Positions 18,334-26,768 of a DNA stretch of 32,563 nucleotides are shown here, piece after piece. Position 1 is the first letter of the stretch, and every line of letters begins with the position of its first letter. The DNA is from a virus. The translations under genes and the position numbers were made by a program. The stretch spans positions 1-32,563 of the IMG/VR virus record IMGVR_UViG_3300024255_000092. One strand, given 5' to 3'. Under the pieces are notes generated by a model. The model was not told the DNA's origin. It worked only from the letters and a program-made list of their open reading frames with translations, and searched no databases.

Positions 18334-20136
18334 TTACTCTGGATATACCGCGAACTTGCTGTTTGCAACATCTAGATCTAGATACATGTGTCTAGATGCA
18401 TTAATGTCGTTGTTACGTGGGATCACTCGAACCGAGATTCTGTTGTCAAAGAAGGTTCCCTGTAAGATGGTTACATCATATAATTTGATTTCGCCTTCCT
18501 CATAATCAACATCGCCAATATTGTCGTTCAGGACAATCTTTTCACCTGTACCAGGATCCAATCTATATAGGACGATTTTACCATCCCTGTCTTCAAAATA
18601 AACGACAACATTGGGATAAGCAGTGACCTTGAATCCTGTTGACATAACAACAGGTCCATCTTCAGGACATGACAGCTTGAATGAGTTCTGGAAACAAAGT
18701 TCGTAATAAGTAGTAGTATTGATTTGTGGATAGAAATCCTTCCTCATCATTACTGTTGTAGTATTGGAAGTAACAGAACGATCAGCGTTGTCAATCACAC
18801 CAACATACTTACTATATCTAAACTTACCGTTAAACTTCTCGGTGTCAGACAGTTTAGTATATTCTTCTACAGAATTTGTGACTTTAGACTTAATATCTGT
18901 AGGGAATTGATTTGTGATACGAGTATTGAAGCTGACTCTACTGTCTAACTCCAAATACAAAATTGATGGATCCTTAATCTCTGGAGTGACTGATGCCACA
19001 GCATAGTCTTTCAATCTAGCAATAATTTGCTTTTTAGTTACACTAGAGAGTGTAGCGCCACTATCAGGTTTGATAACAATCTTAACTTTACCAAATTCAG
19101 GGTATCTCTCCTCTTCACCACCATATGTAATAATGTCAGATACTGCAGGATAAATCTGCCTTACGATAGCACCATAGTCCATTGCAGTAACTGCTCTGTT
19201 CTGTGTGGCATATAGTTTAGGGGCATTGAATTTAATCTTATCAATACTCTCAATACCTGCACCACCATCAGCTGCAGAAACTGTCGTGATGTTAGTTACG
19301 GTAAGTGGGTATGCAACACCGTTATTATCCTGTAGCACACCACTAAATGTAAATACACTAGCGCCATTTGCAGCTGCACCACCAGAAATTAAGTATGATA
19401 TCTCAACGTAGTTATTGTTCTCTAGCGCAGATCCAACTACACCATCACCAAAAAATAGTTGATATTGCTCATCAGCGTTTTCATCTACGTAATAGATCTT
19501 GTCAGATGCTCCAATATCAATAATATTGTTAATCTGGTTGTAGTATGCAAACTGTGATGAGTTCTCGATGGGGAATACTTTGACACGAAGTGTGCTAGTG
19601 TCCGCACCGCTGTTCTTTAGAAGGAACTTTTGATTTTTTAGTACCGTAGACTTGGTGTAAGTCTCTTCAATCAAAGTTCCTTCTTGGAGTACAACGTTCT
19701 CAAAAATTGCTTGACCGTTGATAACTCCCGCTTTATAATCATCAATTACGACAAAACGATATAACTGATCATCAAATGTAGTAACAAATCCCGTGCCCTT
19801 CTTCAAGGTAATGACACTTGGGTATGTTCCTGTAAAATTTACTTGAAAATTAACTGTTGCTTGCGGAGAAACAATAGACTTTGGTTTATATCCTAATTGT
19901 TTCGCAAGAGATACAACGTTATCACGGAGTGTTGCTGACTCCAAAAACAATTCATTAGCCACCATGTTCGTGTTGAACGCAGTGTAATACGTATTATATG
20001 CTAGTACATCTAGCAAATTACTCCAAGCAGACCCTTCAAAATCAAAATCTACAAAATCAGTCTGCGCTCTTAAGTAATCTTTGAGCGCAGTCTTGATGTC
20101 AGCAAAATCTAAATTATTGACTTGAATATACTTCAT
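18334..20136 (-). CDS. 6: Baseplate wedge subunit gp6
   Basis: A 600-residue protein, close to the 660 of T4 gp6. The N-terminal third has the family signature: GSAWSNLLDVLAYNTYYTAFNTNMVANELFLESA at residues 35-68, followed by LRDNVVSLAKQLGYKPKS at 70-87. The middle (residues about 265-350) has a PKLYATQNRAVTAMDYGAIV segment resembling the Baseplate_J-like core. In T4, gp6 forms the continuous ring of the inner baseplate and its rearrangement accompanies sheath contraction. The ATG at 20136 overlaps the gp25 stop by four bases (ATGA), which implies coupled translation, and the next gene begins three bases after its stop. Confidence 0.93.
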   Translation of the reverse strand: MKYIQVNNLDFADIKTALKDYLRAQTDFVDFDFEGSAWSNLLDVLAYNTYYTAFNTNMVANELFLESATLRDNVVSLAKQLGYKPKSIVSPQATVNFQVNFTGTYPSVITLKKGTGFVTTFDDQLYRFVVIDDYKAGVINGQAIFENVVLQEGTLIEETYTKSTVLKNQKFLLKNSGADTSTLRVKVFPIENSSQFAYYNQINNIIDIGASDKIYYVDENADEQYQLFFGDGVVGSALENNNYVEISYLISGGAAANGASVFTFSGVLQDNNGVAYPLTVTNITTVSAADGGAGIESIDKIKFNAPKLYATQNRAVTAMDYGAIVRQIYPAVSDIITYGGEEERYPEFGKVKIVIKPDSGATLSSVTKKQIIARLKDYAVASVTPEIKDPSILYLELDSRVSFNTRITNQFPTDIKSKVTNSVEEYTKLSDTEKFNGKFRYSKYVGVIDNADRSVTSNTTTVMMRKDFYPQINTTTYYELCFQNSFKLSCPEDGPVVMSTGFKVTAYPNVVVYFEDRDGKIVLYRLDPGTGEKIVLNDNIGDVDYEEGEIKLYDVTILQGTFFDNRISVRVIPRNNDINASRHMYLDLDVANSKFAVYPE

Positions 20137-20528
20137 CGGGTTCTCTGTAAGAGGAAGTTGACGTTTTGAGGTGGTTCATCTTGGCGACCACGGATAGTGA
20201 ACTCTATCTCAACATCAAAAGCATTATCATCAAAGTTTGGGTCAACTGACAATTCGGTCACCTCAACCCTAGACTCGTATTTCCTCAAAGTGGTTCTGAT
20301 TTGGTCTTCGATCAAACCCGCTGTACCAAAATCAAGTGGTTCAAATAATAATTCAGAAATACCACAACCCAACTCATCATCGAAGAATCTTTCTCCAGGA
20401 TTAGTCAATATAAGATTAACAACTGACTGCTTAACAGATGCATCGTCTTTAGTTACTAGTAAGTCACCCGTAATTGGATGAGGCTTCATAGTAACCTTTA
20501 AATCTTTAAAAGACTGTTGATTGGGCAC
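20133..20528 (-). CDS. 25: Baseplate wedge subunit gp25
   Basis: A 131-residue protein of the gp25 family (T4 gp25 is 132 residues). The core motif LILTNPGERFFDDELGCGISELLFEPLD is at residues 39-66, followed by the usual C-terminal strand segment EIEFTIRGR. Gp25 anchors the first sheath ring to the inner baseplate; the lysozyme activity once suggested for T4 gp25 is not expected. The start is GTG at 20528: the frame upstream is closed by a TAA seven codons earlier, and the next ATG, at residue 14, would remove the conserved DLKxTMKPHP region. No ribosome site is visible before the GTG. A late promoter element lies 20 bases upstream. The gene overlaps gp6 by four bases. Confidence 0.93.
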   Translation of the reverse strand: MPNQQSFKDLKVTMKPHPITGDLLVTKDDASVKQSVVNLILTNPGERFFDDELGCGISELLFEPLDFGTAGLIEDQIRTTLRKYESRVEVTELSVDPNFDDNAFDVEIEFTIRGRQDEPPQNVNFLLQRTR

Positions 20529-23013: not shown

Positions 23014-23021
23014 TATTTATC
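23014..23021 (-). promoter_or_regulatory. Late promoter element at the head of the structural operon
   Basis: Minus-strand GATAAATA, seven of eight matches to the T4 late element. It lies 56 bases before the first structural ORF and downstream of a terminator hairpin, so it marks the switch from the small-gene region to the late region. The 184 bases between 22,959 and 23,142 hold this element, the terminator and no gene. Confidence 0.6.
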
Positions 23022-23093
23022 TCGTTTGGGTAACACTTTGTAGGTTAGAGTAGTGGTAGGAGTCCCGCTCGGCGTTCGGGGGTATACAATAAA

Positions 23094-23113
23094 GGGGGCA
23101 TTTTACTGCCCCC
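23094..23113 (-). terminator. Rho-independent-type terminator after the nuclease cassette
   Basis: A perfect 7-bp stem (GGGGGCA with TGCCCCC) and a six-base loop, followed on the minus strand by TTTATTG. The U-run is short. It lies 30 bases after the stop of the ORF ending at 23,143 and insulates that gene from the late operon. Confidence 0.65.
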
Positions 23114-23142
23114 TGGTGTTACATAGTGTTGTCTAGTTAGTG

Positions 23143-23391
23143 TTAGTTAAGAGCGTAACGATTGCACCACTCACCGAATCCAATTCGTTGATCTAATAGT
23201 AATAACATGTCACGCAAGCGAGCACGGTGCAGCGAGTAGTGACCCGATGACCAATGGATAAACACCAGGCGAGACAGTGGGTAGAGTTGGATCTTGTCGG
23301 TGGCGCTGCTGTGGTCTCTGGTGTCTAGTGAAATCATCATGCTGTGGGTTGTGTTCTTTGGATAGTCTACCAGATCAGATGCAGGAGTCAA
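23143..23391 (-). CDS. Small protein overlapping the 3' end of the nuclease gene
   Basis: The C-terminal 45 residues (LSRLVFIHWSSGHYSLHRARLRDMLLLLDQRIGFGEWCNRYALN) look like genuine protein: a short hydrophobic strand followed by an amphipathic helix. Two starts are possible: TTG at 23391 (82 residues, overlapping the nuclease gene by 17 bases) or ATG at 23340 (65 residues). Neither has a good ribosome site. The overlap and shared high GC content suggest co-expression with the nuclease, perhaps as a partner or modulator, but there is no direct evidence. A terminator follows closely. Confidence 0.5.
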   Translation of the reverse strand: MTPASDLVDYPKNTTHSMMISLDTRDHSSATDKIQLYPLSRLVFIHWSSGHYSLHRARLRDMLLLLDQRIGFGEWCNRYALN

Positions 23392-23944
23392 CCCATCGGG
23401 CGAATGCCTGCAGTGCCATCATGTCGAGCGGGTCTGCTGTCTCAAAGATCGGGGCTGTGCTCCTGCGTTGCTTGGTGCTGTTCACAACGAAGACCTGATG
23501 CTCTGTCTCATCAGCGAACCATGCTGCAGAGTCGGGATCTGTGGCGTCCTGTCCTGTGAACACCGCTGCAGGTATGCCAGGGTAGACACGGCGGATCTTG
23601 TCAAACTCACTACAGGCACGGTCCAGCATGGATGAATCAAGATAGGTCTTGCCCTCCACAATGAATGCCAACTCTCCATCCTTATAGGCATGGATGTCCA
23701 CCTGTGTTTTCTTGTATGACTTGCCGCCCTTGCTCTCAATCATGATATAATCGTTGTGCTTGCACACGATGGAGGGATCGACTGCATAAATCACTGCCTG
23801 TGCCACGTCCTCATAGAGGTCGCCCATCGATGCCCTCATCTTGCCGCCTGCGTTGTCTTCTGCCAGGTAGCGAGCATGTAGAGGGGCGATCGTCTCATCA
23901 TAGATCCGAACGGCGTTGTCGAGATTAAAAGCGGTGGCGTTCAT
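23375..23944 (-). CDS. Probable PD-(D/E)XK superfamily nuclease
   Basis: A 189-residue protein with the pattern of a small PD-(D/E)XK nuclease: a helical glutamate (GDLYEDVAQAV, E45), a beta strand with aspartate (TQVDIHAYKDG, D83), then FIVEGKTY with E97 and K99, followed by a helix (MLDRACSEFDKIRRVYP) and a strand (AAVFTG). Spacing from D83 to the ExK motif (E97-G-K99) is 14 residues, normal for the fold. The length and layout resemble type II restriction-like enzymes, but no methyltransferase is in this window. It lies in a GC-rich segment with its own TACAAT -10 element upstream and a terminator downstream. Substrate is unknown: host DNA degradation, exclusion of rival phages or recombination are all possible. 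The fold call rests on motif reading only. Confidence 0.6.
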   Translation of the reverse strand: MNATAFNLDNAVRIYDETIAPLHARYLAEDNAGGKMRASMGDLYEDVAQAVIYAVDPSIVCKHNDYIMIESKGGKSYKKTQVDIHAYKDGELAFIVEGKTYLDSSMLDRACSEFDKIRRVYPGIPAAVFTGQDATDPDSAAWFADETEHQVFVVNSTKQRRSTAPIFETADPLDMMALQAFARWVDSCI

Positions 23945-23964
23945 GGTGTCGTGTCGTTGGTGTT

Positions 23965-23992
23965 ATTGTAGCATGGAAGGGGGCGACCCCTT
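23965..23992 (-). promoter_or_regulatory. Hairpin plus -10 element before the nuclease gene
   Basis: A perfect 6-bp hairpin (AAGGGG, loop GCGA, CCCCTT; 23977-23992) overlaps the stop of the upstream gene. Six bases further along the minus strand comes TACAAT (23965-23970), a good -10 box about 20 bases from the nuclease ATG. No convincing -35 is seen. The hairpin lacks a U-run, so it may be an operator or a weak attenuator. Confidence 0.45.
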
Positions 23993-24212
23993 ACAGTTCT
24001 GCGAGCATCGCATCCATCTCGTCTGTGTCTACGTCATCGGACAACCAGGAGATGCCATCGCCTGTGATGTACTCGCCAAACTCATCGATGTAACGCTTCG
24101 CCCATTTTCTGTACCCGAGATTCTGGTTTTCTTTGGCGTGGCGGTAGATCATCTCATCGTTGCCGATCCAGAGGGCGACGTTCCATGTTGCGTGATTTGC
24201 CCATCCGTTCAT
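23991..24212 (-). CDS. DUF7249-like small phage protein
   Basis: A 73-residue protein starting MNGWANHATWNVALWIGNDEMIY. The WANxxTWNVALWIxND block is characteristic of a small protein family widespread in marine phages that I recall as DUF7249; the name should be confirmed. The rest is acidic and ends DTDEMDAMLAEL. A ribosome site AAAGGA lies about six bases before the ATG. It is separated from the nuclease gene by a hairpin and promoter. No biochemical role is known to me. Confidence 0.7.
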   Translation of the reverse strand: MNGWANHATWNVALWIGNDEMIYRHAKENQNLGYRKWAKRYIDEFGEYITGDGISWLSDDVDTDEMDAMLAEL

Positions 24213-24267
24213 GCTGTGTCCTTTGTTTGTTTGCTTGTGTGTATCCTAGTCGATGTGGTGGCGTTGC

Positions 24268-24513
24268 CTATGCCAGCAGTGCCAGTGCATCGGTTGTCAC
24301 ACTCTCGATTGATTCGTCAGCGTAGACTCTCACCCATCGGATGGGGTTGCCACCTGGCAGGATACGCCAGATCATCATGTCACCAGACTCGCCCATCTCA
24401 CGCCAGATCTTGCATGCTTTGTATGCTGCATCGATCGTGGGGCTATAGTCGCAACCCCATCCATCGAAGTTGCCCCATGCTGCAGGTTGGACGGCGTAGG
24501 TTGGTTGATCCAT
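24268..24513 (-). CDS. Small tryptophan-rich protein, 81 residues
   Basis: MDQPTYAVQPAAWGNFDGWGCDYSPTIDAAYKACKIWREMGESGDMMIWRIL: five tryptophans in 81 residues, with a helix and a strand-like MMIWRILPGGNPIRWVRVYA segment. The ATG at 24513 is preferred; a TTG at 24558 that overlaps the upstream stop would add 15 residues of poor composition. GC-rich like its neighbours. No family recognised. Confidence 0.6.
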   Translation of the reverse strand: MDQPTYAVQPAAWGNFDGWGCDYSPTIDAAYKACKIWREMGESGDMMIWRILPGGNPIRWVRVYADESIESVTTDALALLA

Positions 24514-24554
24514 TGTTTGTTTTGTTTCTTGAGTAAAGTCTACAGGGTCAGCGA

Positions 24555-24728
24555 TCAATGTCTGTCGCTAATGTTCCAGTTGCTGGACTGGTTGGGTTCG
24601 ATGCGACCTGCTCGCACTGCCATGCGATACTCATGTTCTGCCTGCTGTTGGCGTTGGATTTTCTCCATCACCTTCAGCATCAGTGGCGAGGGGTTCTCGC
24701 TATGCATAAAGAATCCAGTGCGTTCCAT
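24555..24728 (-). CDS. Small helical protein, 57 residues
   Basis: MERTGFFMHSENPSPLMLKV followed by MEKIQRQQQAEHEYRMAVRAGRIEP, a strongly helical charged segment, ending WNISDRH. Start ATG at 24728 shares its A with the TGA stop of the upstream gene, a typical coupled arrangement. It ends shortly before the tryptophan-rich gene. No known function. Confidence 0.6.
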   Translation of the reverse strand: MERTGFFMHSENPSPLMLKVMEKIQRQQQAEHEYRMAVRAGRIEPNQSSNWNISDRH

Positions 24729-24925
24729 CAAACTAACCCCAGTGCAACTGCTTCCATTACGTCGCCATACTCACCGACGATATCACCGAATGAATCTCGG
24801 ATGTATGCATAGGAGTTGGACTCGTCGTGCATGCTGTAGCAAATGTCCATCGCACGATCCAGATCGGTCGTGGTCTCTGACTCACCCAAGGTGGGGCAAG
24901 CGATTTCGTAAGTCGTTTCGTTCAT
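24728..24925 (-). CDS. Small acidic protein, 65 residues
   Basis: MNETTYEIACPTLGESETTTDLDRAMDICYSMHDESNSYAYIRDSFGDIVGEYGD. The DLDRAMDICYSMHDESNSYAYIRD layout (helix, then strand) resembles small phage proteins that display short two-layer folds, but no family is recognised. An AAGGAC ribosome site lies just before the ATG at 24925, and a TCGGCA/17/TATAAT promoter ends seven bases above the start codon. It is the first gene of a short GC-rich operon (24925 to 24268). Confidence 0.65.
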   Translation of the reverse strand: MNETTYEIACPTLGESETTTDLDRAMDICYSMHDESNSYAYIRDSFGDIVGEYGDVMEAVALGLV

Positions 24926-24931
24926 GTCCTT

Positions 24932-24960
24932 ATTATAGGGGCTGTGAGAGGCAGTGCCGA
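24932..24960 (-). promoter_or_regulatory. Sigma-70-like promoter for the GC-rich small-gene operon
   Basis: Minus strand TCGGCA (24955-24960), 17 bases, then a perfect TATAAT (24932-24937). The start codon follows so closely that the transcript would have almost no leader, so the AAGGAC ribosome site would fall at the predicted transcript start. Confidence 0.5.
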
Positions 24961-25010
24961 AACCTTGTGCCACTAGGTCGATCGTCCACGGGCGGCTGAA
25001 TCGGTTAGTG

Positions 25011-25181
25011 TTAGTTAGTGGGGAAGTTCTTACAGACAGCATCACATAAGATACGGGTTAAATCTTCTTGAGTTTCAGGATACTTTCCCTCCCACATTTC
25101 CCAACAAAATGTTTCAATAATAGCGTTGATGTCTTCCATCAACTGTTCTCTACTCATTAACATATCAAGTTGATTGTTCAT
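25011..25181 (-). CDS. Small helical protein, 56 residues
   Basis: MNNQLDMLMSREQLMEDINA then IIETFCWEMWEGKYPETQED, ending DAVCKNFPTN. Predominantly helical and acidic. The ATG at 25181 overlaps the TAA of the upstream gene by one base (TAATG), which supports both the start and coupled translation. Function unknown. Confidence 0.65.
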   Translation of the reverse strand: MNNQLDMLMSREQLMEDINAIIETFCWEMWEGKYPETQEDLTRILCDAVCKNFPTN

Positions 25182-25435
25182 TATACACACTCACCGAGTT
25201 CTGCATCAATAGCATCAACAATCGTCGTGTGAATGTTATCGTAGTCTTGCAGGTTGATTAACACGTCCTCACAAACTTCTTTTGATTGTTGTACCTCATC
25301 ACCATTATCATCGTACTTCACAACATCTTCGCTAGTGTAAATCCACCCTGCTGCTGGTGCATCTTCGCCCTGTTGTTCAATAAGATTTTCAACCCTTGCT
25401 TTGAGTGCTTTGAGTGAATAGAACTGTGATGCCAT
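25181..25435 (-). CDS. Small acidic protein, 84 residues
   Basis: MASQFYSLKALKARVENLIEQQGEDAPAAGWIYTSEDVV, then a DDNGDEVQQSKEVCEDVLINLQDYDNI acidic stretch. The ATG at 25435 is chosen over an upstream in-frame start at 25489 because that one lies inside the preceding terminator. The layout (N-terminal helix, W-I-Y strand, acidic loop, helix) looks like a small globular domain. Followed directly by the 56-residue gene. No family recognised. Confidence 0.65.
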   Translation of the reverse strand: MASQFYSLKALKARVENLIEQQGEDAPAAGWIYTSEDVVKYDDNGDEVQQSKEVCEDVLINLQDYDNIHTTIVDAIDAELGECV

Positions 25436-26658: not shown

Positions 26659-26768
26659 GGGTCTCGGGGTCACTTCGCAGGCTGTCACATAGCTCGTTGA
26701 CTTTCGAGTGCTGGGGTGCTAAGCCAACTACAACCCCGCACATTACCTATGTTTTTTAATACATTTAG

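Follow-up and report, generated by a model that had tools for sequence, protein, structure and literature searches.

A predicted solitary CTNAG restriction endonuclease in an exchange slot of T4-like cyanophages, with self-immunity probably conferred by loss of its sites

The DNA analysed here is a marine virus record of 32.6 kb from IMG/VR, taken as a whole and referred to throughout as the window; its closest named relatives are S-CAM1 and S-CAM3, T4-like cyanomyoviruses of the Kyanoviridae. On its minus strand, an island of small genes is followed by gp25 and then gp6, and a slot (23094-23992) bounded by two hairpins and carrying the gene of a predicted nuclease lies just upstream of these late baseplate genes (Table 1). 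No Rfam RNA and no tRNA were found in the window.

Table 1. The nuclease slot and its surroundings (positions in the window)
Feature	Position	Strand	Basis or remark
gp6	18334..20136	-	
gp25	20133..20528	-	
Conserved noncoding right flank: terminator and late-promoter-like motif GATAAATA (23021-23014)	23014..23132	-	91% identical in S-RIM44 and Syn1
Terminator hairpin AGGGGGCAGTAAAATGCCCCCT, then TTATTGTATA	23093..23114	-	MFE z -3.0; conserved in Vellamovirus
Small ORF, 65 aa from ATG 23340; phrog_7365 (weak)	23143..23340	-	Accessory slot gene
Predicted PD-(D/E)XK nuclease, 189 aa; PHROG_10849 (function unannotated)	23375..23944	-	ORF, profile, model, motif scan
Extended -10 promoter-like element TGCTACAAT, ~21 nt before nuclease ATG	23965..23973	-	Consensus match only
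Hairpin AAGGGGTCGCCCCCTT at DUF7249 gene stop; left slot border	~23974..23992	-	Kept in nuclease-free phages; z only -1.3
DUF7249 gene (PF23907), conserved left-flank neighbour	23991..24212	-	Profile and comparison
Sole CTNAG site of the window, context GCTAAGC	26719..26723	.	77 expected

The flanks of the slot share 82-91% DNA identity with those of phages that lack the nuclease, in which other genes fill the slot. Both flanks are kept in the Vellamovirus phages S-RIM44 and Syn1 (the DUF7249 gene with its hairpin on one side, a noncoding stretch of ~120 bp on the other), and an unrelated gene of 66 amino acids sits between them; S-RIM32, S-H9-2 and Sf-CH11 have this gene together with another small ORF, and Sf-FP1 has it alone. 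Since the flanks are conserved and the contents differ in phages without the nuclease, this is a real exchange slot and the nuclease is exchangeable cargo between hairpins, which bears out the inserted cargo unit proposed in an earlier note on this DNA. The 66-amino-acid gene (MNIRKYRKAVDAIM...) is conserved in nuclease-free phages, has no Pfam match and resembles HicA by eye only. The noncoding right flank, for its part, is more highly conserved between genera than the neighbouring genes.

Other features ascribed to the cassette fared less well. The hairpins described as framing it are present, one of them a terminator, but the TACAAT placed beside the hairpin at 23.1 kb is complementary to the tail of the terminator; the nuclease promoter, judging from its match to the consensus, is likely to be the extended -10 element on the opposite side, which is kept upstream of the nuclease in loci L002, L008 and L012 and in S-CAM1 and S-CAM3. 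A GC-rich composition unlike the flanks turned out to be a one-sided contrast and not specific to the cassette, which has 52.3% GC against 43.7% downstream and 49.5% in the upstream flank (23993-25250, with up to 54% in 500-bp windows), while the nuclease genes of S-CAM1 and S-CAM3 (46% and 44%) are lower in GC than their own upstream flank (54%). Foreign GC was therefore rejected as evidence of insertion, the upstream DNA being equally rich to ~25.2 kb. The small ORF, said to overlap the nuclease, probably starts at ATG 23340 and so comes after it. Of 24 nuclease loci, 9 have a homologue of this ORF (47-98%) and 15 have none; in the latter, wherever a hairpin motif was found, the terminator lies 17-29 nt past the nuclease stop. 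A partner or inhibitor of the nuclease, or the other half of a toxin-antitoxin pair, would be constantly linked to it; the small ORF is instead an accessory gene of the slot and no obligate partner.

The reading of the cargo gene as a probable PD-(D/E)XK nuclease has, by contrast, been strengthened. Residues E45, D83, E97 and K99 do not vary among the 18-19 close relatives, nor when homologues at 26-36% identity are included, and an AF2 model from 18 sequences (pLDDT 90.6, pTM 0.88) contains the strand-strand-helix arrangement of the PD-(D/E)XK core. Foldseek matches to this model are restriction enzymes, the seven top PDB matches all being chains of BbvCI (E 4e-6 to 1e-4) with TM-scores of only ~0.5. 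A separate AF2 model of a distant homologue of the restriction-modification (R-M) type (pLDDT 94.1) again placed BbvCI first, more weakly, and the nuclease matched PADLOC REase_II with E 1.9e-5. Matches by sequence only were insignificant for BbvCI in the PDB (E = 1) and reached 0.2 for Pfam Bpu10I, and a profile from a broader alignment gave none; Pfam and NCBIfam yielded no match above cut-off, and no homologue was confirmed in the cellular genomes searched. With a dN/dS of ~0.1, the gene is under purifying selection.

BbvCI recognises CCTCAGC, and its kin Bpu10I, Bsu36I and BlpI likewise have sites with a CTNAG core. Residues 183-186 (ERNM) of BbvCI subunit R2 and 173-176 of R1 have been proposed to read the inner CTCAG, and Met186 is common to Bpu10I (CCTNAGC), Bsu36I (CCTNAGG) and BlpI (GCTNAGC) and is tied to the unspecified central base (PMC6326814). 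In an HMM alignment whose match has E = 1, the segment ExK-TYLDSSMLD of the nuclease falls on IECKRYLERNMLD of R2, which puts M106 on Met186, and EGKTYLDSSMLD is set against ECKRYLERNMLD of R2.

Depletion was scanned across 4- and 6-bp palindromes and interrupted palindromes against a maximal-order Markov expectation. CTNAG was by far the most depleted, with 12 occurrences where 1478 were expected in nuclease-carrying phages, versus 1311 for 1280 in two nuclease-free phages. Observed and expected counts were 3/448 in S-CAM1, 3/461 in S-CAM3, 4/450 in G002, 5/208 in G005, 0/146 in G003, 0/138 in G004, 1/133 in AG-345-P14 and 1/77 in the window (P 2e-32 for the last), so that the ratio spans 0.000-0.024 in these eight carriers, as against 0.92-1.08 in 11 cyanophages in whose records a profile search found no nuclease. 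When 2304 motifs were compared (every 5-mer, plus palindromes containing degenerate positions), carriers and non-carriers were told apart by CTNAG and its sub-motifs and by no others; forms with central A/T and C/G are purged equally. GATC, GANTC and CCWGG were rejected as the nuclease site, having no specific depletion in the scan. The structural match to BbvCI preceded the motif scan, and these two lines of evidence are thus independent. Near-total loss of CTNAG in the carriers, which the earlier note had missed, also explains how a restriction-type nuclease can occur with no methyltransferase in view: as the earlier note had remarked, the window holds no cognate methyltransferase (PF01555, PF02086 and PF00145 are all absent), and S-CAM1 has only a Dam-like enzyme, with none of the N4/N6 or C5 type.

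Loss of the word co-segregates with the gene. Among 80 gp6 loci, every nuclease-carrying contig has 0-2 CTNAG and every nuclease-free contig that covers the site has a normal count, and the carriers fall into two separate groups of the gp6 tree (16 and 3 rows). Locus L201, from a contig with no CTNAG, has a nuclease 94% identical to that of the window but a gp6 with no more than 59% identity. The corresponding values for S-CAM1 are 59% for the nuclease and 76% for gp6; this discordance means that the gene has moved between lineages, both of which are purged. The carriers are related, and independent origins are accordingly few (two gp6 branches); a single origin could, strictly, still be accommodated by gp6 alone. 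L214, the gp6 sister of the second group, has 0 CTNAG where 17 are expected; its slot lies off the contig, and a nuclease is predicted there. Within the main gp6 clade, L181-L183 have intermediate counts (44 for ~65 expected) and their nuclease site is off the contigs; these are possible cases of gene loss with sites returning.

The sites have been lost at the level of DNA, by synonymous codon choice, and not at the level of protein. Leu-Ser and Leu-Arg pairs are equally common in the carriers, where their coding as CTN-AGN was observed 0 times against 125, 116, 38 and 53 expected, compared with 120/127 and 111/126 in controls. S-CAM1, S-CAM3 and G005 retain 11 sites between them, four of which are in genes for tRNA-Thr or tRNA-Ala. 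The context GCTNAGC accounts for 13 of 17 survivors in nuclease-carrying records but for only 85 of 3483 sites in nuclease-free ones, an enrichment suggestive of poor cleavage in this context. One GCTNAGC survivor stands at matching spots in the window (26719) and, as GGCTTAGC, in G005 (84355) and S-CAM3 (61369), ~2.8 kb upstream of the nuclease amid similar, noncoding surroundings, and could belong to an RNA or regulatory element under constraint.

Our interpretation is that the nuclease is a solitary, Type II-like CTNAG restriction endonuclease, to which the phage would be immune through the purging of its own sites, and we set the probability of this at roughly 0.8. An enzyme of the BbvCI/Bpu10I/Bsu36I/BlpI fold group would cleave 5'-CTNAG-3', the specificity of DdeI, and GCTNAGC poorly; its expression would probably be early, driven by its own extended -10 promoter, and its active form probably a homodimer. 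Its targets would be unmodified host DNA, with ~3 CTNAG per kb, and the DNA of co-infecting phages that retain the word. The phage would itself be protected without a methyltransferase, some 450 sites per 200-kb genome having been lost by synonymous change, with those left lying mainly in tRNA D-arms and in GCTNAGC.

Host-genome degradation and the exclusion of competing phages, the roles suggested in the earlier note, are still the two best candidates, and both may hold. We consider breakdown of host DNA slightly more likely than not: denA, ndd and denB are missing from cyanomyoviruses, with no described substitute, so that this role is vacant, and breakdown of host DNA in some undescribed way has been suggested for them (PMC2984593). 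The same review notes no sign of modified nucleotides in these phages. That the enzyme is chiefly directed at the DNA of co-infecting rivals, rather than that of the host, has a substantial though smaller chance of being right. Nuclease-free kyanoviruses of overlapping range keep ~3 CTNAG per kb and would be cut, the nuclease gene is patchily distributed and has passed between lineages, and the R-M system of marseillevirus is thought to exclude rivals while host DNA is not degraded (PMC7253447). Against exclusion as the main role, host DNA is equally rich in sites and has no known protection, besides the vacancy just described.

A different account of the missing word, that restriction by a DdeI-like enzyme of the host purged CTNAG and that the nuclease is incidental or unrelated to it, strikes us as improbable. 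Phages do often avoid the restriction sites of their hosts, and the carriers are also without other palindromes (CCGG, GTGCAC, GTCGAC). However, these zero-count palindromes are missing from nuclease-free phages too, while CTNAG is not, and its purging tracks the presence of the nuclease across two gp6 lineages. S-CAM1 shares its host, WH7803, with the nuclease-free phages S-PM2 and ACG-2014h, in which CTNAG is undepleted, as it is in DNA of the host itself (69 for 76 expected in 20.9 kb). The purged word is, moreover, the core of the sites of the nearest structural relatives, which had been identified before the scan.

Slightly less probable again is that the gene encodes a free-standing homing endonuclease, spread through cleavage of the empty slot in relatives that lack it. 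Such nucleases are known in cyanophages, as in the case of F-CphI (PMC6083498), the flanks of the slot are conserved between carriers and non-carriers, and the phylogeny of the nuclease disagrees with that of gp6; but an enzyme that cuts rarely would exert no selection for genome-wide removal of a 5-bp word, and the nearest fold is that of a Type II restriction enzyme, with homologues paired with methyltransferases. An enzyme of the F-CphI type was rejected both on this genome-wide loss and on its motif, which is that of Endo VII and unlike that of the nuclease. Exchange of the cassette could nonetheless be helped by cutting, which is compatible with the loss of sites. Least likely of all is a conventional nuclease whose genome is protected by an unlinked phage methyltransferase, for although an N4/N6 methyltransferase is present in S-CAM3 and a Dam-like one in most kyanoviruses, 0-5 CTNAG sites per record leave almost nothing to protect, S-CAM1 has neither an N4/N6 nor a C5 enzyme, the Dam-like gene is found in nuclease-carrying and nuclease-free phages alike, and the S-CAM3 enzyme, with a match of 62 amino acids, is no orthologue of the R-M-linked methylase.

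Distant marine T4-like phages point to where a solitary CTNAG enzyme might have come from. In loci L063, L083-L088 and L316-L333, the nuclease is followed by an N4/N6 DNA methyltransferase that overlaps its stop, usually by 3-16 nt; these are textbook R-M operons, and there too CTNAG heads the depleted motifs, though its loss is partial (159 for 455 expected). The likely history is that the gene began as half of such an operon, that sites were lost while the methylase shielded the genome, and that the methylase then became dispensable and was lost. This sequence of events would solve the problem of how the enzyme was tolerated at the outset by a genome with hundreds of sites. The main evidence against a simple purging rule for the whole family comes from outer copies without a methylase, four of which have CTNAG (L313 17/26, L314 16/19, L334 15/21, L311 7/12), while in two it is low (L312 0/11, L315 3/26). 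Outer homologues carry Tyr at the position of M106 in the cyanophage branch; in this group the specificity may differ, or the methylase may lie off the short contigs. In L313 and L315 the nuclease is also near DUF7249 and gp25-gp6. That the cyanophage lineage swapped methylation for genome-wide purging, and so holds a weapon that supplies host-DNA degradation, kills rivals with CTNAG and can pass only among purged phages, is an extension of our reading to which we give close to an even chance.

Other words are missing from these genomes. GTAC is wholly absent from S-RIM44 (KX349294) and Syn1 (GU071105), with 0 for 1184 expected in the whole genomes, and mildly low in other kyanoviruses; this loss may be due to restriction by the host or to a further solitary enzyme, and hints that other cyanophages do likewise with other enzymes. 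CCGG occurs 0-1 times per genome in S-CAM1, S-CAM3, G003, G004 and the window, and 49 times for 82 expected in G005. GGTACC, GTGCAC and GTCGAC have zero counts in all carriers scanned, which fits host restriction.

These results name a gene, a candidate cut site and a mechanism of self-protection, all of which can be tested in the isolates S-CAM1 and S-CAM3. Self-immunity would here be written into the genome itself, in hundreds of sites gone synonymously, and the passage from R-M operon to solitary enzyme would be traceable. It would follow which phages are safe to receive the gene and which rivals are open to destruction, and genome sequence by itself may offer a general route to solitary restriction enzymes and the sites they cut.

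Already known are restriction enzymes with this fold, R-M systems encoded by viruses, and PacI, a solitary enzyme whose host is free of its sites (PMC3488263 for the last). In the literature searched, coverage of which was partial, no phage is described that has a restriction enzyme with a short site, no methylase and genome-wide purging. With its conserved borders and alternative contents, the slot may be comparable to the PeSL cassettes (Arbiol 2010 and Comeau 2014, as cited in PMC4503421), in which genes of T4-like phages are exchanged between conserved promoter-hairpin units. With BbvCI, Bpu10I, Bsu36I and BlpI the nuclease shares, by prediction, the fold, the PD-(D/E)XK core, the ExK-x-YL-x(3)-M-LD segment and sites with a CTNAG core (PMC6326814). 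It differs from that group in its size (189 amino acids, as opposed to ~280), in having one gene where BbvCI and Bpu10I have two, and in being borne by a phage, without a linked methyltransferase and with an inferred site that is the bare 5-bp core. The distant R-M operons have a homologous nuclease (26-47% identity) with the same catalytic residues, and are set apart by their overlapping methyltransferase, the partial depletion of CTNAG and the Tyr residue. PacI, a solitary bacterial enzyme, is likewise without a cognate methyltransferase, and its host genome reportedly lacks its sites (PMC3488263); it is, however, an HNH enzyme with an AT-only site of 8 bp, of which few are expected, whereas for the 5-bp site here hundreds are expected. 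The enzymes of chloroviruses and marseilleviruses are also Type II-like and encoded by the virus, and degradation of host chromatin has been ascribed to those of chloroviruses (PMC7019647), but there the virus genome is guarded by paired methyltransferases, where in the cyanophages the absence of sites would itself be the protection.
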